The translations under genes were made by a program, and so were the position numbers. 20,961 nucleotides of DNA from a virus. The stretch covers positions 1 to 20,961 of the IMG/VR virus record IMGVR_UViG_3300040751_002743; one strand, written 5' to 3'. The notes under the pieces were generated by a model. That model made no database searches. It was not told the origin of the DNA and saw only the letters and a program-made list of their open reading frames with translations. Shown one piece after another: positions 1,286 through 20,961 of this stretch. Within the stretch, counting starts at the first letter, position 1. Each line of letters starts with the position of its first letter.

Positions 1286-2971
1286 TCAGGCTCCGTCGCG
1301 GGTCGCCTCATTCGCCATGCCTTCCAGTACAGCGAACTCGGCAGCCTTCCAGACAACGTAAGACTTGCGAGTCCCTCCGAGGTGTCTGAACTCGGCGTGC
1401 TTGAAGTCGCGGCTCTCGCCCCCGAAGCGGGCCAGCAGGCGTCGTTTCAGCGACAGCCGCTCCCCCTCCATGATCCGATGCTGCCGCTCGATGTCTTCCC
1501 AGACTTTCGACCACGAGAACCATAGCGTTCCGTCCTGCCTCCACGAGGCTCGGCCGCTCGGGTCGGGTACGTCGTCCTCAGATGGCTGCGATGCCTGAGC
1601 CAGCCTGTCGTAGAGCCAGCCTGCGAGGATGACATACCGAAGGCTCGATGCCCCCGGCCACTCATGGTCGACGTTGTCGAGTAGTTTCGCCTTCAGTCCG
1701 AGGGCGACTCGTTCCTTGTCGCCACCGTCCTTCTTGTCGACAACCTTGTAGCCGCCATCCCATATCTGCACCCATCGCTTCGGCTCGGCGTCTAGCATCA
1801 CCACACCAGTCGCAGCCAGTACGCTCGCCGCCACTTTTCGTGCCGAGCGATACTGATCGACAGACAGCGACACGTTGCCCGTACCGTCTGCCGTCCATTT
1901 TTTCCACGCAGGAGCATGAAGCCTGTACTCAAGCGGGTCAGAGTGAACAACAGTAAGCCGCCAGTCTCCGGGCTTCCACTCCGGCGTCGAGTCTGAGCCG
2001 GGAACAAGCGGCCCGAACGACAGCCCTTCGACAGTCAGGGTGCGAACGTAGTCTGATGGTTCGGCCTTCTTGACGATCGACCTCCCTTGCTCGCTTGCAT
2101 TGACGGCTTCGTCGGGTGCGATCTCAGCGGCTCGAGTCTTCCGTATGTATGCAACCGCCGACCGGTAGCAGTTGATGACCTCAGAGTCAGGCAGCGGCGG
2201 CTTGCAGTTCACGAGGTTGATCGCTCGCACTTTGGCGAGTAGGTCTTGTTGCTCGAACGGGTCGTCGAGGTTTGGCCCGCAACGAGCAGCCTCTCGAACA
2301 GCGAACCGATGCAGGGTTTCGTTCCGCGAACCGTTAGGGATCTCCTCGTGCATAGCGAGCCTCGCAGGCTTTCGACTGTCGTCCGGCCCCGAGGAGTTCC
2401 ATAGCAACTCGACCAACTTCTCAGGCAACTCGGCCAACTCAACTTCGTCTGGCGACAGTCCCGGAATCCACTGGTACATCGCTCCCGTGTGGTGCGTGCT
2501 GGGCGGTATTACAGAGTGAATCGCCTTACCACCGTTACCGATCCGCATCTCAATACCCATCGGCTTCTTCACTGATGTCGCCGGCAGTTTCTCAGACCAC
2601 TTGAACAATCGGTGCGGCCCACGCCCAGCCTGATAGGTCGGCGTCCATATCTCGCCGAGTTCGAGCGCATCCCAAGCGGCCTTCGCTTCAGGGCCGTCGA
2701 GTTCGATGTCGATGACCCCCGATCGCGGCCCGAGGAGCAGCCCAACGTTGACGGGCATCTTTCCCTCGAACCAACTCATGACCGTCTCTTCGTCGCCCGT
2801 AGCCCTCGCATCCCACTGTTCACCGACTGGGTGTTTCCCCGGCGTTCCGCAGTCGGCGTTCTTTGCGCAGGTGCAGACAGACGGCTCGTGTACTCCGTAG
2901 CATCGAACCAGTTTCCACCCCAGTTGCGTGTAGGACGCAGCAAGCATCCCGATCGAAGCGTTTGTGTTCAT
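1286..2971 (-). CDS. Prim-Pol (AEP superfamily) DNA primase/polymerase
   Basis: This 561-residue protein has an N-terminal bifunctional primase/polymerase fold, which makes primers or extends DNA with metal-dependent chemistry. Visible marks: Cys-rich segment CTCAKNADCGTPGKHP (about 33-48) typical of phage and plasmid Prim-Pols, first metal motif GVIDIELDG (D88, D92), GRGPHRLFKW (117-126), and the second motif IPPSTHHTG (155-163). A helical PriCT-like region follows (about 210-280). Residues 300-561 are not recognised and contain no Walker A, so unlike many Prim-Pols it is not fused to a helicase; separate helicases lie on both sides. GAGGA lies 9 nt before the ATG at 2971 in a leader that also contains CAACCAAG. 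Confidence 0.88.
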   Translation of the reverse strand: MNTNASIGMLAASYTQLGWKLVRCYGVHEPSVCTCAKNADCGTPGKHPVGEQWDARATGDEETVMSWFEGKMPVNVGLLLGPRSGVIDIELDGPEAKAAWDALELGEIWTPTYQAGRGPHRLFKWSEKLPATSVKKPMGIEMRIGNGGKAIHSVIPPSTHHTGAMYQWIPGLSPDEVELAELPEKLVELLWNSSGPDDSRKPARLAMHEEIPNGSRNETLHRFAVREAARCGPNLDDPFEQQDLLAKVRAINLVNCKPPLPDSEVINCYRSAVAYIRKTRAAEIAPDEAVNASEQGRSIVKKAEPSDYVRTLTVEGLSFGPLVPGSDSTPEWKPGDWRLTVVHSDPLEYRLHAPAWKKWTADGTGNVSLSVDQYRSARKVAASVLAATGVVMLDAEPKRWVQIWDGGYKVVDKKDGGDKERVALGLKAKLLDNVDHEWPGASSLRYVILAGWLYDRLAQASQPSEDDVPDPSGRASWRQDGTLWFSWSKVWEDIERQHRIMEGERLSLKRRLLARFGGESRDFKHAEFRHLGGTRKSYVVWKAAEFAVLEGMANEATRDGA

Positions 2972-3077: not shown

Positions 3078-3842
3078 TCAGTCGTCACTGTTGCTGCCGA
3101 GTTGCTGCGACATTCTCGACAGTGGTTGCGTGTAGAGTTTCTGCACGATCAGCCCTTCCTCCTGCGACAGAGTCCCGATCGCTCTCGGCACGACCTGCGA
3201 GTACGGCTGGCCGCCTTCGCTCGTCGCCTTCTGTAGCGTCAGGCTTACGACAGTCCGATAGTGCGGAACCGTCATACCTGTCTTCAGGAATCGCCGGACG
3301 TTCTTCAACGACCCGACACCACACCGAACCAGCAGAGGCCACGCATCGTCCTCTCGGAGGATGGCAAGCAGCCGGCTTTCCTTGCACCGACGCATCTGCG
3401 TTCCGTTGCCAGCACTTCCCGGCTTGTTGTAGGGAAGACGCTGCCAGTCGTACTCGCGGTCGCCGATGCGACATGACTCCAACGCCTCGGCATCGAGGTC
3501 GCCGATGTCATCGTTCACTCGGTACGCAGTCTGGAGGTCGTGCGTAACAAGCACCGGGGGAACCCCCGACTGCGGTTGCTCACTTCCCCACAACGTACCC
3601 TGCGGGCCGAACCACACGAGCACGCCATCAATCGCTTTCGCCGACTGATCGTTGTTCCCCGAGTCCGTCCACGACCACACGAGCCCGCCGCCGGCAGGCA
3701 CAGACACACGAGGCAGATCGCTCGCCTCAATCACTTCTCCGGCAGCAAGGTTCGCAGCGAGAGCCTCACGAATGTCACTGTCGGGTCGCAGAACCGCGAA
3801 CTTGCTGTCCTCGGTCCCGATCATCAGTTCACCGGATGTCAT
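3078..3842 (-). CDS. Conserved phage protein, possibly ssDNA-binding type
   Basis: A 254-residue protein with no catalytic motif. Features seen: a Trp/Gly-rich N-terminal half (GGGLVWSWTDSG, DGVLVWFGPQGTLWG), then GSAGNGTQMRRCKESRLLAIL, LLVRCGVGSLKNVRRFL, MTVPHYRTVVSLTLQKA and YSQVVPRAIGTLS. From memory, this C-terminal pattern recurs in phage proteins encoded beside Prim-Pol primases and SNF2 helicases, sometimes annotated as ssDNA-binding proteins; I could not check this. Its position between those two genes fits a replication accessory role (inference). The start at ATG 3842 has AAGGA 8 nt upstream, and the preceding gap holds the TTGTTCG-type motif. The C-terminus is polar (SNSDD). Confidence 0.7.
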   Translation of the reverse strand: MTSGELMIGTEDSKFAVLRPDSDIREALAANLAAGEVIEASDLPRVSVPAGGGLVWSWTDSGNNDQSAKAIDGVLVWFGPQGTLWGSEQPQSGVPPVLVTHDLQTAYRVNDDIGDLDAEALESCRIGDREYDWQRLPYNKPGSAGNGTQMRRCKESRLLAILREDDAWPLLVRCGVGSLKNVRRFLKTGMTVPHYRTVVSLTLQKATSEGGQPYSQVVPRAIGTLSQEEGLIVQKLYTQPLSRMSQQLGSNSDD

Positions 3843-3880: not shown

Positions 3881-4300
3881 CTACGAAGCACGGCTACACA
3901 ACCGACTTCGACAATAGCCTTTCAGCAATCCTTTGAACGCAGTGCCTTCGCAAGCGTTCTCCAGTGAAAGACCTTGCTCCTTTGCACGCTCAACGAGCCA
4001 CGCCTTTAGCGTCGTGGTGTTGACCGTCATCAACTCCTCGAGAATGCCCTCGGCCTCAGCCGCATCGAACACCTCGTCGCGAACTTCCTTGGGGACGGTC
4101 AGGCTCATCGCCTCATCAGACCACCACGTTCGTCCTGCAACGTTCACACGATCGAGACCAGACGCAGCCAGCATCTCGATCGCCAGCCCCTCAACCGTCT
4201 CGAGTTCTTTCTTCGCTTCTCGAAGCACCTGCTCGGCTTCAGCCTTTACTGCCTTTGCCTTCGCAACCTTCTCGAGCATCTTTGCAAGTTCCTCACTCAT
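3881..4300 (-). CDS. Small phage protein with N-terminal coiled coil
   Basis: A 139-residue protein whose first 40 residues (EKVAKAKAVKAEAEQVLREA and on) form a charged Lys/Glu/Ala helix, probably a coiled coil. A middle segment, AGRTWWSDEAMSLTVPKEVR, may be a small beta unit, followed by a helical C-terminus ending in a basic, Cys-containing tail (GYCRSRLCSRAS). GAGGAGG lies 9 nt upstream of the ATG at 4300, and the gene starts 1 nt after the SNF2 stop, so the two are translationally linked. I do not recognise a named family; short proteins like this are common next to phage SNF2 helicase genes (from memory). Confidence 0.75.
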   Translation of the reverse strand: MSEELAKMLEKVAKAKAVKAEAEQVLREAKKELETVEGLAIEMLAASGLDRVNVAGRTWWSDEAMSLTVPKEVRDEVFDAAEAEGILEELMTVNTTTLKAWLVERAKEQGLSLENACEGTAFKGLLKGYCRSRLCSRAS

Positions 4301-4301
4301 C

Positions 4302-5663
4302 TCAGGCAGCCTCCTCGGCTCGTTGGGTCAACTGGTCAAGCACCCCGTCGATGACGTCTCGGCGGTTCTTCAATGCTCGATATACCGAACCGTCGATCGT
4401 TGCGTTCGCGACGAGGTGGTAGTACCTCACGCACCTCGTCTGCCCCGGACGATGAAGCCTCGCGAGGCTCTGGTCGTAGTCACCGAGGGAGAAGCCCAGC
4501 GAGTAATAGACGCAGTAGGCTGCTCTCGTCAGGTCGATACCAGCCCCGCCACTCTGAATCTGAACACCGAGGATCGTCGTGTCGCCACGCTGCCACTCTT
4601 CCAGCGTCTTCGTCTCTCCGCTCACTTCTGAGTACGGTCGCCCAAGCCTTCTCGCCATCGCCTCGACCTCTCTCAGGTCGTGACGAAACCGACAGAACAC
4701 AACGACCGGCTCGGTGGCTGGCAGGTCTTCGAGCATCGACTCAAGTGCTAACGCCTTCTCGGGCGTCCCACTGATCAGCGTCATATCGAAGCCACCGTCG
4801 ATGTGGCAGTAACCGGACGTCACCTGTTGAAGCCTCAGCAACTTCGTCAGTGCATTCGATGCAGTCATCACGCCGGTGTCGATGTCTGCGACCATCTCGT
4901 TCTCGAACGCATCGTAGACGGCTCGCGTCTTCGGTCTGAGGTCGACCTCGATTCGTTCGTGTAACGTAGACGGCAGATCAAGCACCTCATCGGCAGTCAC
5001 CCGCCACGAGTTCTCGTCGAGCAGTTTTGACAACTCCTGCTGGTTCCGCCACTCGACGACCTTGCTGGGGAATACAGGGTCGGTGATTGCGTACCGAGCC
5101 CTCATCCTCGTGAACGAAGTCCCGAACACCGTGGGGTCGAGGAACCGAAACTGCCCGTACAGGTCGAGCGGCGAGTGAGGCATCGGCGTGCCAGTCAGGC
5201 AGAGACGCTTCGCCTTCGGGTGTTTCTTCGCAAGGCCAGCCAGCCATCGCGATGCCTTTCCTCCCGGCGACTTGATGCGGTGCGACTCATCGAGAACAAT
5301 CGCCCCCCATCGCGTTGCCATGATGTCCTTCGCCAACTGTCCTCGCCACACTGAGTCGTAATTCACGACCACCAGCGTCGGCTTGTTGGTCAGCATGGCG
5401 TTCGCCAGTTCCTTCGCCCGCTTCGCGTTGCCCCCCTTGGTGAGATTCACCACACGCAGTCGCTCGCGATGGAGGCCGAGGGCCATCAATGCCGTAAGCG
5501 ACTTACCTGTCCCCATGTCCATACCGAGCAGGGTGGCGTCTCGTCCTGCGGCATAATCGCTCGCACTGATCTGGTGTTCCCACGCCTCAGCATCCGGGGC
5601 CATCCGTGCGACCTTCTCCCAAGCAGGCCCGACCGCCTGCGGAACAACAATGAGTACGTTCAT
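4302..5663 (-). CDS. SNF2-family DNA helicase/translocase, phage type, unusual motif order
   Basis: A 453-residue two-lobed SF2 ATPase. Seen: Walker A MDMGTGKS (48-55), DESH box VLDESHRIKS (123-132), motif III LTGTPMPHSPLDLYGQF (156-172), C-lobe VVVFCRFRHDL, GGAGIDL and SLARLHRPGQ with the motif VI arginine. SNF2 proteins translocate on dsDNA; phage forms are often encoded beside primases. Oddity: the segment NVLIVVPQAVGPAWEKVA (2-19), which reads like motif Ia, precedes the Q-motif-like HQ (30-31) and Walker A. In the family it normally follows Walker A. The ATG at 5663 overlaps the previous stop (ATGA), has GGAGGAGG 8 nt upstream, and an in-frame TAG about 30 nt upstream rules out a longer N-terminus. 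Confidence 0.93.
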   Translation of the reverse strand: MNVLIVVPQAVGPAWEKVARMAPDAEAWEHQISASDYAAGRDATLLGMDMGTGKSLTALMALGLHRERLRVVNLTKGGNAKRAKELANAMLTNKPTLVVVNYDSVWRGQLAKDIMATRWGAIVLDESHRIKSPGGKASRWLAGLAKKHPKAKRLCLTGTPMPHSPLDLYGQFRFLDPTVFGTSFTRMRARYAITDPVFPSKVVEWRNQQELSKLLDENSWRVTADEVLDLPSTLHERIEVDLRPKTRAVYDAFENEMVADIDTGVMTASNALTKLLRLQQVTSGYCHIDGGFDMTLISGTPEKALALESMLEDLPATEPVVVFCRFRHDLREVEAMARRLGRPYSEVSGETKTLEEWQRGDTTILGVQIQSGGAGIDLTRAAYCVYYSLGFSLGDYDQSLARLHRPGQTRCVRYYHLVANATIDGSVYRALKNRRDVIDGVLDQLTQRAEEAA

Positions 5664-5977
5664 GAGTGAGCCTCCTCCATGATGGTTTCGCTAAGTTCCT
5701 TCCAATCCACCTCCTCGAGCGACGACTTCAGCAAGTCCATGAAGACGCCAGTAAGCATGACGCTTTCGGCTCTCTCGAATCCGTCCCAGTGAGCCGCCTT
5801 GAGTGCCTCCTCAAGCCGCCGCTCTGCTTCCTGCTGAGCCGTCAAGAACTTGCTCGGCTCAGTTGTCTGATCGAGATGTCTTGCGACCTCGATCCAGTAG
5901 TCGTGCTGCCCTTGGTCGTTGTCGATCCAGACCTTCACGATCCAAGTCTCGTAGTTTCGGTAGCCGTTGTGTGACAT
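5660..5977 (-). CDS. DUF7249-like phage protein
   Basis: A 105-residue acidic protein. The N-terminus YRNYETWIVKVWIDND (6-21) followed by a YW pair matches, from memory, the small phage family DUF7249 (pattern NYETW-x-V-x-LW-x-DND); its function is unknown to me. The rest is helical and Glu-rich. It starts 1 nt inside the upstream stop codon (TGATG) and its stop overlaps the SNF2 start (ATGA), so it belongs to a tightly coupled operon with the zinc-ribbon protein, the SNF2 helicase and the coiled-coil protein. Confidence 0.75.
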   Translation of the reverse strand: MSHNGYRNYETWIVKVWIDNDQGQHDYWIEVARHLDQTTEPSKFLTAQQEAERRLEEALKAAHWDGFERAESVMLTGVFMDLLKSSLEEVDWKELSETIMEEAHS

Positions 5978-6260: not shown

Positions 6261-6288
6261 TTGGTTGGTTGGTTGGGTACTCGAACAA
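6261..6288 (-). repeat. Junction module: TTGTTCGAGTACCC plus (CCAA)4
   Basis: Directly after the TAA stop of the Pyr_excise-like gene the minus strand reads TTGTTCGAGTACCC and runs into four CCAA units (6261-6277), followed by GAGGA and the ATG of the zinc-ribbon gene at 6246. Confidence 0.75.
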
Positions 6289-12630: not shown

Positions 12631-12642
12631 CCAACCAACCAA
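12631..12642 (+). repeat. (CCAA)3 tract in plus orientation
   Basis: CCAACCAACCAA directly abuts the inverted repeat and is followed by CGAGGG. It is the only multi-unit copy on the plus strand, and lies on the side where transcription runs toward the plus-strand integrase. Confidence 0.65.
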
Positions 12643-12837: not shown

Positions 12838-13722
12838 ATGAAGACGATCTACGACCTGTTTGAAGAGCGGTATCGACCGCTCAGGCTACGAGGACGCTCA
12901 CCGAATACTGTTCGCCTCTACCACTGCACGATCCGCTCGTACTCAAAATGGCTGGGCAGGCAGGCAACGCTCGACGACCTGACCGAACTGACCGTCTCTC
13001 GGTTTCTCGAAATAAGGGCGAGACAGTGCAGCCCCTACACCGCCGAGAAGGAACGGACACAACTGTGCTGCCTGTGGCGGTTCGCCGCTGATCTCAGGCT
13101 CGTCGAGTCTCGGCCAATGGTTCCGGCTGCACCGCTCCCTGACAGAGTGCCGAAGGCATGGTCAGAGGAGGACATGCGGTCGCTATTCCGAGCAGCGTCG
13201 TACACGCGAGGGGTCATCGGCCACGTGCCTGCTCGGATATGGTGGCCCGCACTCATCTCTGTGCTATGGGAAACAGCCGAACGAATCGGTGCGATCATGG
13301 AGGTGGAGCCAAGCGACCTCGACCCGCCACACCTGCTCGTCCGTGCTGAGTACAGAAAGGGCGGGAAGCGCGACCGCGTCTACAAACTCAGCGAGAACAC
13401 GCTCACGCTCGTCCGTGCCTGCATCAGCATTCGCAGGTCGCACAAGGTATTCGAGTGGCATCGCAACCGGAACTCACTCTGGCGACACTTCGGCGACATC
13501 GTGACTCGTGCGGGCCTTGGCTGCGGATGGGGGAACGGGCGACGCAGTCTCAAGTTCCACCAGATTCGACGCTCGGCAGCCAGCCACTATGCAGCCAGAG
13601 GAGGCGACCCTGTCTCGCTTCTCGATCATTCGAGCCCGCGAATCACGAAGCGTTGGTATCTCGACACACGATTGACCGACAAGGCGGTTCGTCCTTGCGA
13701 CACACTGCCAGGGCTTGAGTAG
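12838..13722 (+). CDS. int: Tyrosine recombinase (phage integrase)
   Basis: A 294-residue tyrosine recombinase and the only clear plus-strand gene. N-terminal core-binding (SAM-like) domain about 1-95; catalytic domain from about 105 with ETAERIGAI (R149), a K at 174 or 177 (EYRKGGKRD), KFHQIRRSAASHY (H241, R244), LLDHSS (H264) and RWYLD (Y274 as nucleophile). These are the family's conserved catalytic positions, so the enzyme is probably active. It would catalyse integration and excision between attP and attB. There is no long arm-binding N-terminal domain, so it is nearer the short Xer-like type. It ends convergent with the glycosyltransferase gene, sharing an inverted repeat; the adjacent HTH proteins are candidate directionality factors. 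Confidence 0.92.
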   Translation: MKTIYDLFEERYRPLRLRGRSPNTVRLYHCTIRSYSKWLGRQATLDDLTELTVSRFLEIRARQCSPYTAEKERTQLCCLWRFAADLRLVESRPMVPAAPLPDRVPKAWSEEDMRSLFRAASYTRGVIGHVPARIWWPALISVLWETAERIGAIMEVEPSDLDPPHLLVRAEYRKGGKRDRVYKLSENTLTLVRACISIRRSHKVFEWHRNRNSLWRHFGDIVTRAGLGCGWGNGRRSLKFHQIRRSAASHYAARGGDPVSLLDHSSPRITKRWYLDTRLTDKAVRPCDTLPGLE

Positions 13723-13742: not shown

Positions 13743-14442
13743 TACCGAGAGCGTGCCTGAATAGTTTGCCGAGAAAATTCCGGCAACGGAGGATGCGAGT
13801 TTCCGTCCAATCTCTGTAATGATTGTAGACGTGGTGATTTATCATCCACAAAACCGCAGAAGAAGGGTTTCTCGTGCAGTCCATCGAGTTCATCGTTGAA
13901 AAAATGTCCCAATAATCGAGCGGATAGTACCGTTGATGCGGAAACAGGACACGAGACGAGCCATCACCCGTCTCGATGTGCGGCCTGAGCATTCTGTCAT
14001 TCGGCTTGTTGTCGTAGAACTTTCGCAACACTTCCTGATACCGGACAAAGGTTTGTTCGAGAAGCGGGCTCCCTGCACGGCCACCGATGACAGTCTCTCG
14101 CGCGGGCCAATTTGGACTGGTGACACCAACGAAGTCGTACGAATAGCACATCCACACAAGTTCGATTGGCGACATACATATCGAGTCAGCGTCGATGAAT
14201 ATGCCGCCGAACTTCCAAGTCAGCCAGATCCGCAGGATATTTGACTGAAAGCACAGCGGGAGTCGCCTAAACGGCTTCAATACAGGCGCAGCACCTAACT
14301 CGGCTGCGGCCTTGTAATCGAGAACCCTCGCCGACGGGTTGTACCTCCTGATCGTCTTGATGCAGAGAGAGACGATAGGCGGCTTCCTGCCCTCCCAGTA
14401 CAACCAGACCGGAGGCGTCTCACTCTTTCTCAACTCAGTCAT
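13735..14442 (-). CDS. GT32-like glycosyltransferase (DXD sugar transferase)
   Basis: A 235-residue protein. VWLYWEGRKPPIVSLCIKTI (12-31) then RRYNPSARVLDY, and FQSNILRIWLTWKFGGIFID leading into IDADSICM with the DxD motif at 84-86: this is the pattern of the GT32/capsular-polysaccharide family (Gly_transf_sug), which uses a nucleotide sugar and a divalent metal. The FQSNILR segment is the family's conserved helix before DXD. The C-terminal half (HHVYNHYRDWTETRIL) is less conserved. ATG 14442 lies 8 bp inside the end of the preceding gene; the SD is weak (GGAA), so coupling is likely. The acceptor is unknown; its last gene position in the block suggests surface or virion glycan modification. 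Confidence 0.82.
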   Translation of the reverse strand: MTELRKSETPPVWLYWEGRKPPIVSLCIKTIRRYNPSARVLDYKAAAELGAAPVLKPFRRLPLCFQSNILRIWLTWKFGGIFIDADSICMSPIELVWMCYSYDFVGVTSPNWPARETVIGGRAGSPLLEQTFVRYQEVLRKFYDNKPNDRMLRPHIETGDGSSRVLFPHQRYYPLDYWDIFSTMNSMDCTRNPSSAVLWMINHHVYNHYRDWTETRILRCRNFLGKLFRHALGIE

Positions 14443-15151
14443 CGGATATTCCGTTGTCGAATTCCCCGCCAGCCGGAAGCCTCTTTGCGATCTGCGAAAT
14501 GATGCCACACTCGACTGCGTGATCGTCGTAACTGAACAACCCGAACTTCCTGAATGCGAAGCCCATTCGCTGTCTCGTCGGTTCATGAATTTTCAGGTCG
14601 GGCCTCTTCTTCGTGCAATCGGCGCAAAACATATTCCCGTACACACTTCGTATGTGGTAGTCGCCGTCAATCCATCCCCCAAGCGATAAGTATTTTTCCC
14701 GTTCAAACCAGATAGGAAAGTGCAGTTCGTAGTTCTTGGTTGTGTAACCAGCCGCATGCAGTGCTTCTTTCGTCCTCTCTCTTGTCACAGCCCACCTGCA
14801 ATCGCGTTCAAAGTGCAGGTCGCCATTCGAGTAGTTCCTTGCTTGCGAGACATCCATCGGCCTCGTCATGACGTAATCATCTGCCCACAACGCGATAGTG
14901 TTCGTGAGAGGTAATGACTCGAATGCCCATCGAACTTTTCTTGAAGACCTTCCCTCCCTTGTTGCAGGGAACTCTTCGACCGCAGCGTGTCTGTATCGCT
15001 CTGTAGAGACGAACCAGAATGGTTTGTGACCAATCACCCACACCCAACGAATCCCCTGTGCGTACTTTTCAATGCTTCGAAGGCAGAGTCTAAGTTCGTC
15101 ATCTCTGCCACCAACCGAGCCGACGCCAAGCGGTATGACAATGTCGATCAT
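14435..15151 (-). CDS. Glycosyltransferase-like protein (Stealth/GT-A-like)
   Basis: A 238-residue protein beginning MIDIVIPLGVGSVGGRDDEL, with CLRSIEKYAQGIRWVWVIG (a GT-A-like N-terminal strand-helix-strand) and IALWADDYVMTRPMD (about 89-103, an acidic DD where Stealth-type sugar-phosphate transferases carry DDD). The middle has TKNYELHFPIWFEREKYLSL and a CADC pair. I read it as a nucleotide-sugar or sugar-phosphate transferase; the exact donor is unknown. ATG 15151 overlaps the upstream TGA (ATGA). With the GT32-like gene and the GT25-sulfotransferase gene it makes three sugar-modifying genes in this block. Confidence 0.7.
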   Translation of the reverse strand: MIDIVIPLGVGSVGGRDDELRLCLRSIEKYAQGIRWVWVIGHKPFWFVSTERYRHAAVEEFPATREGRSSRKVRWAFESLPLTNTIALWADDYVMTRPMDVSQARNYSNGDLHFERDCRWAVTRERTKEALHAAGYTTKNYELHFPIWFEREKYLSLGGWIDGDYHIRSVYGNMFCADCTKKRPDLKIHEPTRQRMGFAFRKFGLFSYDDHAVECGIISQIAKRLPAGGEFDNGISDD

Positions 15152-15417
15152 TTCAGTCTGTACCCTAACGCCCACAGTATCTTCGCGAGGTCGCTCGCCT
15201 GCTGCGTCACGGCGTCTTCGCTATGGTCGGGGTTGGCGAAGTGCAAGAACTCGTGGATTTCCGTGTCGAGTCTTCGACGACCCTGCAAGCGTTTGTCGAT
15301 GAGGATTTTTGTACCGTGGTATGTCCACCCGACGGCATCGCCCGCAAGGCGAGAGTATCGCCACAGCATTTTGCGTTCGCCGATTTTGAAGTGGTGGTCT
15401 TCGTTACCTTGAGACAC
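15148..15417 (-). CDS. Small HEXXH (zincin-like) protein
   Basis: An 89-residue protein with IHEFLHFANPDHSED: HEFLH at 55-59 fits the HEXXH zinc-protease motif, followed by a helix DAVTQQASDLAKILWALGY. Very short proteins of this kind, with a beta N-terminus (KMLWRYSRL, WTYHGTKILID) and an IHE-LH helix, are known to me from phages; no substrate is known. The start is GTG 15417 with GAGGAG 8 nt upstream. It lies inside the 3' part of the longer MazG-like frame, in a different frame. Confidence 0.72.
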   Translation of the reverse strand: MSQGNEDHHFKIGERKMLWRYSRLAGDAVGWTYHGTKILIDKRLQGRRRLDTEIHEFLHFANPDHSEDAVTQQASDLAKILWALGYRLK

Positions 15418-17009: not shown

Positions 17010-18090
17010 GGCAGTGGGTTTCCTCCGTTACTTGATGACGATGAGCCGGAACTACTAGCAGACGATGAGCCGGAACTACTAGCAGACGATGAGCCGGAAC
17101 TACTAGCAGACGATGAGCCGGAACTACTAGCAGACGATGAGCCGGAACTACTACCGCGAGATGATCCGAGCGAAGATCCACCGCTCGACGATTCTCCCGG
17201 GCAAGGCAACTCAGTGACAACGCCGGATGACTCAGGGATGACAGGCTCGAACGCCCCTGTCTCCTGTTCCCATTGGTGAGTCGTCGAAGACTTTATGACC
17301 GGCAGCCCAGTCTCGGGGTCACACTCATCGCAGTATTCGATGTCCGTGTAATAAGAGAAGCATGTGCCGGGTACGCTGCCGCTCAGTTTTGTTGCAACGA
17401 CCCTTCCGCATATTGTCGTGTACTCCGCTGGCGGTGGAGTGTTTTCGCCTCCGCAGTCATCGCTTGAAGAGGAGGAGCCACCGCCGCCACCACCGCCACC
17501 ACTACTGCTGCTCGGCGGGTCAGGTGGTTGAGGATACCCACCGCCTCCGCACTGGCTCCAGATCAACGTGATGGACTGCCACGAGCAGACCATGTAGTCG
17601 AACCAGTACAAGATGATGCCACCCTGAGAACCATCGGGGCAAAATAAGGGCGTCGCTGGCGGTGGAAGTTCCGGGATGCAGCGGCCGGTTCCGCCGCTCT
17701 CGTCACCTCCAGAAGTTTGAGGTACGCACCTATTCACGCAGGCCACGAGTGATGAATACGGCCCCTCCTGTCCGCCGACGCACTCACCGTTGACGCAGGT
17801 ATACCGCAGCGGAACACACTCGAGCCCATTCCATTCAGTGTCGGCGGGGCATTTGCATTCGCAATCAGATTGGTCGCGAACCCTGCCACCCCCACACTCA
17901 GACGTATCCTCGCAGATACATCGGCACTCGAAGTTCGCAAACGTCCCCTCGGGGCATTGGAGCAAGCAGATGCACTCGAATGAGTCCGGGTCACGGATGC
18001 CGCAGGCACACTCGCACTCGAACTGAGTCTCATAGCAATTCCCAGCCTCATCACTCCCGAGTGAGTCGCAGTCTGTAACGATCCTGCATG

Positions 18091-18094: not shown

Positions 18095-18846
<752 letters not shown>

Positions 18847-18863: not shown

Positions 18864-20213
18864 TTATTGCCTTTGCTTCACATGAGCAATCGCATTTCGG
18901 ATCATCTGCTTTGTCGGCTTGAGGCCAGCGAACTTCACGATGTCGTCGACGGCCCTCGTAGGGTTCGACAGAACGTCGGCATACTTCAGGTGCAGAACGC
19001 TTTCCTTTGGGAGCGTAGCGACGAACTTCTCCTTCTCATTATGGAGCCATCTCTGCACGGCCTCGCACTGAGAGTCACTTGCGGCGAGCCAACCCTTCGA
19101 CTGCTTGCTTCGTCGTTTCAGTGAGTCGATAGACTCCTCAATCGGACGAACGCAGTGAATGACCTTCAGCCCCTCGCCACAGATGCTCTTGAGTTGGTCA
19201 CCCATCGCACACAGGTGCGGATACTTACCGCCGACGGGTACGCCACCGAGTTTCCGCTTGCTAATTTGCACACGCTGCTGAATCCACTTCCTCAGCCTGT
19301 CTTCGATATTTTGATGCGGCTGCGTAAAACCGGGGGAAGGGAAGCGGCCAGCCCACTCGCAAAGTTTCGCAAGGCCGATCGCCTCGCCGCCGCCGCCATT
19401 CTTCGACTCGTAGCCCCCGAGTTTGTCCCCGATGTTCAACCCAAGTTTGTAACACATCATGGCGATGCACGAACTGCCAGACCTATGCGGCCCGACGATA
19501 GCGATGAAATCCATTGAAACCCTGTTCGGTTGTGCGGGTGAAGTCCTCACAAAATCCTGTACTGCCGCTGACACATTTCCACGAAGCCACCAACGTTCAC
19601 CTGCTTCCTTCCATGAGATGTCCGACTTACCTTCAGCCTGACCGCAGAGCCACTGGGCCGGAGCGTAGTACCCCGAACTCGCGTTCCAGTGCAGGCGACC
19701 ATAGTGATGGTCGACGTGGTTTCTGTTCCGCCACTTCGTCGTCTCGTTCAACCATTTGTAGATGGTCGTCATCCCCTCACGCCCGCCGACTGCATAGGCG
19801 TGCGTTCTGTTGATGTCCCGAGCCCGGACGACAAGGGGATTGTCAGCAAGTTCGATAGGCTTCTTCAGGTGTTGCCCGCCGAGGTAAGCCTGCGACCATC
19901 CCTGCGGCAAGGCTTCAAGGTATCTCTGGGAAGCCTCTGTAAAGTTTTCGCAGAACGTGGCGTCGTCTTCAAAGATCAAAACGCTCTGGTGTCCTGCGTT
20001 CAGGCATTCCTCGAGGATGCGGGCGTGCGATCTGTAACACCCCCAGGCACCGCCGCCTTGCTTCCACCACACAGGATGCTTGCACATCCTTCCGTCGATT
20101 GCCTTGTATACCTCGATCTCGCCGAATGGAAAATCTTTCGGCACCCGCTTCATAAAGTCGCCGAGCCTGTCGGGCCTTCGCTCTAGCGATATTACGACAA
20201 CACGATCGAACAA
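18864..20213 (-). CDS. GT25-type glycosyltransferase fused to a sulfotransferase
   Basis: A 449-residue two-domain protein. Residues 1-about 225 are GT25-like (LPS/procollagen type): VISLERRPDRL (7-17), GAWGCYRSHARI (55-66), LIFEDDATF (79-87, acidic metal-binding motif) and a later NRTHAYAVG. Residues 235-449 are a PAPS-dependent sulfotransferase: FIAIVGPHRSGSS (5'-PSB loop, 236-248), KVIHCVRPIEESIDSLKRR (3'-phosphate site) and LKYADVLSNPTRAVDDIV. The first would add a sugar and the second transfer sulfate, perhaps to the same glycan (inference). Start: TTG 20213, with GGAGG 8 nt upstream; a longer TTG start at 20237 is possible. The stop lies 17 nt before the Cys-rich gene's ATG. Confidence 0.85.
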   Translation of the reverse strand: MFDRVVVISLERRPDRLGDFMKRVPKDFPFGEIEVYKAIDGRMCKHPVWWKQGGGAWGCYRSHARILEECLNAGHQSVLIFEDDATFCENFTEASQRYLEALPQGWSQAYLGGQHLKKPIELADNPLVVRARDINRTHAYAVGGREGMTTIYKWLNETTKWRNRNHVDHHYGRLHWNASSGYYAPAQWLCGQAEGKSDISWKEAGERWWLRGNVSAAVQDFVRTSPAQPNRVSMDFIAIVGPHRSGSSCIAMMCYKLGLNIGDKLGGYESKNGGGGEAIGLAKLCEWAGRFPSPGFTQPHQNIEDRLRKWIQQRVQISKRKLGGVPVGGKYPHLCAMGDQLKSICGEGLKVIHCVRPIEESIDSLKRRSKQSKGWLAASDSQCEAVQRWLHNEKEKFVATLPKESVLHLKYADVLSNPTRAVDDIVKFAGLKPTKQMIRNAIAHVKQRQ

Positions 20214-20230
20214 TGTATGCGCCCTCCGTA

Positions 20231-20961
20231 CTAACAACCCGAAGCAGTAAGTATCCCGCTGTCGACTTGATTGCCGTTGCGTGTGACATAGTAAGCAAAC
20301 GGTCCAGACTCAGAGCCTGTGTAGGAGATGCTCCCAGACGATCCAAGAGTTCCAGAGGCAACGAGGTCTGTTCCTGAGTAAATCTCGTAGGAGTCACCAG
20401 CCTGCGCTGACCCACCGAGCGAAGAACAGTATGTCGATGTCTCACCGCCGCCAGTGTCACCACCGCCAGTGTCACCACCACCAGTGTCACCACCACCAGT
20501 GTCACCACCACCAGTGTCACCACCACCAGTGTCACCACCACCAGTGTCACCACCACCAGTGTCACCACCACCAGTGTCACCGCCGCCGCCACCGGTACTG
20601 CCACCGGTACTGCCACCGGTACTGCCACCGGTACTGCCACCACCAGTTTCGCCACCACCGCCAGAGTAGACTCCGTAGAGCGTTGTCGTTGTCACGACGA
20701 GGTTGCCGCCGGAGCATGACACCCCTGTGACTACTGTGACGCCAGTATCGCCGCCGCCACCTGAGCCGCCGCCACCTGAGCCGCCGCCACCGCCGCCGCC
20801 GCCGCCTGAGCCGCCACCACCATCTGAGCCGCCGCCACCACCACCGCCACCGCCGCCGCCGCCACCGCCGCCACCTGAGCCGCCGCCACCATCTGAGCCG
20901 CCGCCACCACCGGAGCCGCCGCCACCACTGGAGTCGTCGCCACCGGAGCCACCTGAGTCAC
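20231..20961 (-). CDS. Gly-rich repetitive protein (N-terminus beyond window)
   Basis: The frame is open from the window edge to TAG at 20231, so the N-terminus is missing; the codons read as starts inside it (such as GTG 20722) are probably internal. Residues from the edge are nearly all Gly/Ser/Asp (GGGGSGGGG type), then DTGVTVVTGVSCSGGNLVV, a (GGST) and (GGGDT) repeat tract, and a C-terminal domain YCSSLGGSAQAGDSYEIYSG...SGSISYTGSESGPFAYYVTR that ends ILTASGC. The last part looks like a small beta domain with one Cys at each end. Probably a fibre, stalk or tail-type protein; the exact identity is unknown. Confidence 0.7.
   Translation of the reverse strand, partial: DSGGSGGDDSSGGGGSGGGGGSDGGGGSGGGGGGGGGGGGGGGGSDGGGGSGGGGGGGGGSGGGGSGGGGDTGVTVVTGVSCSGGNLVVTTTTLYGVYSGGGGETGGGSTGGSTGGSTGGSTGGGGGDTGGGDTGGGDTGGGDTGGGDTGGGDTGGGDTGGGDTGGGDTGGGETSTYCSSLGGSAQAGDSYEIYSGTDLVASGTLGSSGSISYTGSESGPFAYYVTRNGNQVDSGILTASGC
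20454..20640 (-). repeat. 15-bp (GGGDT) and 12-bp (GGST) tandem repeats
   Basis: About nine copies of plus-strand GTGTCACCACCACCA (20454-20588; the first copy has GCCA), followed by about four copies of a 12-bp unit CCACCGGTACTG. Near-identical units show recent expansion. Confidence 0.85.
20757..20961 (-). repeat. Gly-codon low-complexity tract
   Basis: Plus strand (GCC/ACC)n with TGAGCC spacers, encoding poly-Gly with Ser/Asp. It continues past the window edge. Assembly errors are likely in such a tract. Confidence 0.8.

Follow-up and report, generated by a model that had tools for sequence, protein, structure and literature searches.

The window, that is, the whole stretch of viral DNA that was analysed (20,961 nucleotides), carries a gene for an SNF2-family SF2 ATPase at 4302..5663 on the minus strand, an open reading frame of 453 aa in which the N-terminal part of RecA lobe 1 is permuted. 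The gene upstream of it belongs to the DUF7249 family (5660..5977, minus strand; PF23907, 1.1e-6), and its stop codon overlaps the ATG of the SNF2 gene as ATGA. A Shine-Dalgarno sequence, GGAGGAGG (5671..5678, minus strand), lies at a spacing of 7 nt from the ATG. An earlier note on this DNA had credited the gene with both signals, and both are found in the sequence. Downstream are three conserved neighbours, all on the minus strand: a DUF7307 gene of the Pam3 gp33-like type (3881..4300; PF23984, 1.4e-9), a gene for a 254-aa protein that matches phrog_23155 (3078..3842), and a gene for a primase-polymerase (PrimPol; 1286..2971; PF09250, 1.1e-22).

Elsewhere in the window, a tyrosine integrase (12838-13722; phrog_1, PF00589) is encoded on the strand opposite to the SNF2 gene and suggests that the virus is temperate. 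A phrog_7999 protein is encoded at 14435-15175, and the protein encoded at 18864-20237 is weakly similar to phage glucosyltransferases. Short tandem TTGG arrays stand ahead of several minus-strand genes (GGTTGG at 6263, 7336, 7657, 8454, and 9102; CCAACC at 12631) and are absent from the five related loci checked (L008, L014, L018, L024, and L091). Tandem repeats are also present at 17037-17153, 18179-18238, 18638-18735, 20442-20663, and 20749-20928, several of them within open reading frames that encode low-complexity proteins rich in Ser/Gly or Gly/Asp/Thr.

The SNF2 protein of the window matches phrog_62 DNA helicase (1.8e-103), and its best sequence match in the PDB is 1z63. Both Pfam domains of the family are present, namely PF00176 (SNF2-rel_dom; 3e-20, 72.9 bits against a cut-off of 24.9, residues 66-281) and PF00271 (Helicase_C; 1.1e-7, 32.5 bits against a cut-off of 23.5, residues 307-407). 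Walker A (motif I), MDMGTGKS, lies at 5499..5522 (minus strand, residues 48-55), and the other motifs follow on the same strand: motif II, DESH (5280-5291, residues 125-128), motif III, LTGTP (5184-5198, residues 156-160), motif V, QIQSGGAGIDLTRA (4521-4562, residues 368-381), and motif VI, QSLARLHRPGQTR (4434-4472, residues 398-410). The residues G51, G53, K54, D125, and E126 are unchanged across 62 homologues; a subgroup of the related proteins (L010, L022, L028, and L030) has a Walker A of the form MGCGKT and not MGTGKT. Both RecA-like lobes are recognizable in the structure model, in which about residues 20-436 align to SNF2 remodellers. Walker A, motif II, both Pfam domains, and motifs III, V, and VI thus place the protein in the SNF2 family, and the view that the gene is otherwise intact holds, as all remaining helicase motifs are intact. 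The order Q - I - Ia - Ib - II - III, a collinearity that is usual in the SNF2 family and lies outside Pfam's score definition, is not what the protein displays; it reads Ia - Q - I - Ib - II. Because the usual motif order is absent, we file the protein as a topological variant of the SNF2-family SF2 ATPases rather than as a standard member.

The reading frame opens with MNVLIVVPQAVGPAWEKVARMAPDA, continues with EAWEHQ...LLGMDMGTGKSLTALMALGLHRERLR, and then with VVNLTKGGNAKRAKE. The first of these segments is a strand and helix of motif-Ia type placed at the very start of the protein, and the stretch with the Q motif and Walker A, EAWEHQ...GMDMGTGKS...RERLR, comes after it. VVNLTKGG sits directly behind the Walker A stretch; in relatives, a segment of this type comes after motif Ia. 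We refer to the transposed beta-alpha unit with motif Ia, NVLIVVPQAVGPAWEKVARMAPDA (5589..5660, minus strand, residues 2-25), as block B, delimited by profile match, structure model, and a length balance of 24-25 aa, and to the Q-motif helix, Walker A strand, P-loop, and helix (5454..5588, minus strand, residues 26-70) as block A, delimited by profile match and model. The remainder of the SNF2 core (4302..5453, minus strand) is collinear as usual according to the alignments and the PF00176 and PF00271 matches. Homologues with the usual order read A-B-rest.

Profile comparisons support this assignment. A profile of the N-terminal block built from 25 swapped-order sequences, the window protein among them, matched the internal motif-Ia profile of normal-order homologues with 97.5% probability (E 5e-12), and the block A profiles of swapped and normal-order proteins matched with 99.5% probability (E 3.5e-23); the comparison profiles for the motif-Ia and Walker blocks were built from normal-order homologues only. 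The motif-Ia-like segment is absent from its usual place in the window protein, and in profile-profile comparison the region behind Walker A in the swapped proteins gave no motif-Ia match (18%). Taken alone, the window protein matches motif Ia weakly (2.3 bits), and the strength of the match comes from the clade. The earlier note had described a motif-Ia segment that comes first and is followed by HQ and Walker A, and the profile matches and alignments agree with that description. The limits it gave, 2-28 and 29-69, were close, and 2-25 and 26-70 fit best.

The same swapped order occurs in 28 other IMG/VR contigs with 57-100% protein identity, and the carriers are a lineage of uncultured bacterial viruses. 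A sister virus traced via its primase (66% identical) also has an SNF2 gene in swapped order, with 64% identity across the full length. One near-identical contig (L002) differs from the window at 21 positions, all at 42-1172 and none within the SNF2 gene; by itself it is not strong evidence against misassembly. In five independent close pairs, block B (22 codons each) has a summed Sd of 25.5 and Nd of 6.5, so that dN is far below dS, which indicates that the block is under purifying selection. As a virus contig from a metagenome, the window could in principle owe a local swap free of inversion to a misjoin; the 28 other contigs, reaching down to 57% identity, the conserved flanking genes, and the synonymous divergence inside the block nevertheless make an assembly artefact or chimeric contig scarcely credible.

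Outside this lineage the usual order prevails. Relatives examined at <=50% identity keep it, and an order scan of 47 relatives in bacterial genomes classed none as swapped. The swapped N-terminus had zero matches among 50,697 phage records, and the best matches of the whole protein in a plasmid search were <30% identical. Three phage isolates whose tblastn matches start at query residues 3-9 (phiVC8, Gordonia Fribs8, and Streptococcus Javan626) were considered as further swaps and have the normal order. Within the lineage, block B is preceded by an additional N-terminal stretch of the type MAWHDSFDRMK.RPH in the SNF2 proteins of L008, L010, L011, L014, L016, L018, L022, and L028-L030; proteins of the L024, L033, L025, and L027 types lack it, as does the window protein. 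This stretch has low confidence in the structure model; it could have been added later or be a leftover of the rearrangement.

In an unrooted tree built on residues 95-453 only, that is, downstream of the rearrangement, all swapped proteins fall on one side of a single branch (support 100/97), which amounts to one change, and the swapped clade lies inside normal-order relatives. Judging from these sequences, the swap is the derived state, because the normal order is shared by 1z63, the SNF2 relative with a solved structure, and by the other relatives. Among normal-order proteins, the clade nearest to the swapped one (L046, L059, L065, L080, and L087) is about 41-45% identical. Its three downstream genes are those of the swapped loci, DUF7307, the 254-aa protein, and PrimPol; therefore, this is the same gene in related viruses, the swapped and sister genes are orthologous, and the block was moved in place. 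The event is thus not peculiar to the gene of the window, being old and lineage-wide, with 28 other contigs in one clade. The sister clade resembles the window protein in its neighbourhood, its near-identical motif-Ia block, and its short N-terminus, and differs in having the order A-B and a start of the form MLWQHQ or MWQHQ, whereas the window protein reads B-A. In four of its five proteins, the start codon stands 1-2 residues before the Q-motif Trp, with a Shine-Dalgarno sequence ahead in several.

Comparison with one sister protein (L059) makes the move explicit. Its internal motif-Ia block, VLICCPKAVVPAWGKQ, is nearly the same as the swapped block, VLVVCPQAVAPAWGKV. The LTKG Gly follows the Walker A Lys at 47 aa in L059 versus 23 aa in the window protein, and the distance from the N-terminus to the Q-motif Trp is 2 aa versus 27 aa; from the Q-motif Trp to the Walker A Lys it is 26 in both. 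About 24 residues have therefore been lost internally and about 25 gained at the N-terminus. It could be supposed that an N-terminal look-alike was gained independently and the internal motif Ia lost separately, as the block is short (about 24 aa), convergence is conceivable, and the window protein alone scores so low. We regard this as highly improbable, given the E-value of the profile match, the near equality of the sister and swapped blocks, and the agreement of gain and loss within one residue. The swap of two adjacent blocks originally proposed is instead borne out by the single clade, the profile matches, and the length balance.

An AlphaFold2 model of the window protein, computed from an input of 62 sequences, has a mean pLDDT of 91.8 and a pTM of 0.86. 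In it, block B forms a strand (3-7) and a helix (9-24) with a pLDDT of about 95, and block A forms a helix (29-39), a strand (43-48), and a helix (54-61). A second member, modelled from swapped sequences only, has the same order of elements at lower confidence (pLDDT 76.3, pTM 0.57). The best VIA-align match was Ino80, with Z 29.4 over 370 residues at 2.7 Å, covering model residues 20-436, and among the 50 matches listed Ino80, ISW1, CSB, and SNF2h had Z values of 22.9-29.4. Apart from the moved block, a normal SNF2 fold is thus confidently predicted. The structural alignments among the matches listed begin at model residue 20-28 and leave block B out, which is expected of a sequential aligner when the first unit is displaced. 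Most likely, block B still occupies the usual second-strand slot beside the Walker B strand; we infer this position from its confident strand, its conserved motif-Ia residues, and the lack of any substitute segment. As for the structural point raised earlier, whether motif Ia still packs beside Walker A, a confident SNF2 model with the strand and helix of block B was obtained, and the usual position of the block in the sheet is probable.

The same alignments could be read differently, since residues 1-20 are left unmatched by sequential aligners. Block B might be conserved yet lie outside the motif-Ia slot as an N-terminal appendage with a new role, which would leave a motor without a canonical Ia or an inactive one. 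We consider this unlikely: the motif-Ia signature is kept, as L4, P8, A10, V11, and W15 do not vary among the 21 swapped proteins aligned, and the block is modelled at high confidence as a helix and a strand, the latter requiring a partner strand; a motif-Ia match is seen in no other segment, and the remaining ATPase motifs are intact. Terminal beta-alpha units are typical domain-swapping elements, and block B of one subunit could for that reason complete the sheet of another in a domain-swapped dimer; however, with a B-to-A linker of only about 4 residues and a high-confidence prediction for the monomer, such a dimer appears very unlikely.

The Pfam profile itself responds to the changed order. 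In five of six normal-order proteins, the PF00176 match begins within profile positions 1-23, and in four of five swapped proteins within 76-106; in the fifth swapped protein (P0006) it starts from profile position 43 at protein residue 7. A collinear profile such as Pfam SNF2-rel_dom can therefore miss the N-terminal part of permuted proteins.

Taken together, it is highly likely that the gene encodes a working SNF2-type DNA translocase whose motif-Ia beta-alpha unit was transposed once to the N-terminus in an ancestor of the lineage. The order of homologous segments differs without any joining of the termini, as in a non-circular permutation, and a circular permutation does not describe the protein, as the C-terminal lobe and the C-terminus stay in place; the change is best described as a non-circular permutation within RecA lobe 1 that is fixed and probably functional. 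The viable topological variant that the earlier note had envisaged is consistent with the independent contigs, purifying selection, synteny, and the confident predicted fold. That note would have counted close homologues that share the order and have a normal predicted fold against its own reading; such homologues do exist, but they exclude a fresh rearrangement or misassembly and favour a topological variant.

Mechanistically, one unit of ~24 aa, the motif-Ia strand and the next helix, would have left its place after the Walker A unit and taken up an N-terminal position. The beta-alpha units of a parallel sheet all start and finish at the same (bottom) edge. The two units could thus have been exchanged by rewiring the bottom loops only, so that helix 2 leads into the Q-motif helix and strand 3 comes after helix 1, and the move would be tolerable because each unit begins and ends at the bottom edge and only the loops there are renewed. 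The swap amounts to a shift of one unit to the N-terminus, because there is almost nothing ahead of the Q motif in the sister proteins. It is possible that the first 70 codons were duplicated in tandem, that translation then began inside the first motif-Ia copy, and that the second copy was lost, although this route is a guess; no B-A-B intermediate was seen in any locus scanned, and upstream of the sister genes there was no clear motif-Ia-like copy. The pentamer GCGTG, previously suggested as microhomology for the exchange, occurs at codons 27 and 69 of the window gene and at three further sites in the gene, and when 20 other swapped genes were checked, not one had it at both junctions. It is not conserved and is uninformative about the origin of the swap; because the event is old and lineage-wide, the present repeats are not its footprint.

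After such a move, motif Ia would still contact DNA, and the enzyme would act beside PrimPol as a conventional dsDNA translocase or fork remodeller driven by ATP. Sequence and gene context suggest that a role of this kind in phage replication or fork remodelling is most likely, since PrimPol and other replication genes adjoin. SNF2-like helicases also adjoin polymerase genes in environmental phages (PMC6302109).

Textbooks and profile models treat the motif order of SF2 motors, which are among the commonest enzymes, as fixed. We found no description of a permuted SF2 helicase in the literature searched (mostly open-access journals). We think it likely that the window protein represents a natural, fixed permutation in the catalytic RecA lobe of SF2, with motif Ia before motif I and the motor still working, which would mean that evolution can rearrange the order of core elements even in a motor family as common as this one. 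The swapped lineage and its unpermuted sister in the same neighbourhood form a rare matched pair, which allows the tolerance of an ATPase core to chain order, the way in which such moves happen, and their engineerability to be tested.

SNF2/Rad54-like ATPases (SsoRad54 1z63, Ino80 8oo7, and ISW1 9jnp) and phrog_62 helicases share their motifs, two lobes, and fold with the window protein. In 1z63 and other normal-order relatives, motif Ia comes after Walker A, whereas in the window protein it precedes the Q motif and Walker A. The BPP-1 capsid protein (HK97 fold) is a non-circular permutation in which the three-dimensional fold is kept, and its authors call such changes rare (PMC3863775). Both are phage proteins with non-circularly swapped fold elements, fold retention in the window protein being a prediction. 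The BPP-1 protein has no recognizable sequence similarity to its unpermuted form, whereas the window protein has a known unpermuted sister, and the moved unit of about 24 aa lies in an enzyme core, not in a capsid protein. Circularly permuted GTPases (YRG/YlqF family, YqeH, and cpRAS) are P-loop NTPases that remain functional with reordered motifs (PMC2430557, PMC2741578); there, the whole domain is permuted, while here one unit has moved and the rest stays. P-loop folds are also known to tolerate strand swaps and insertions (PMC7758060), but those strand swaps are ancient and lie between families, whereas the present case falls within a single family in which both states are present.
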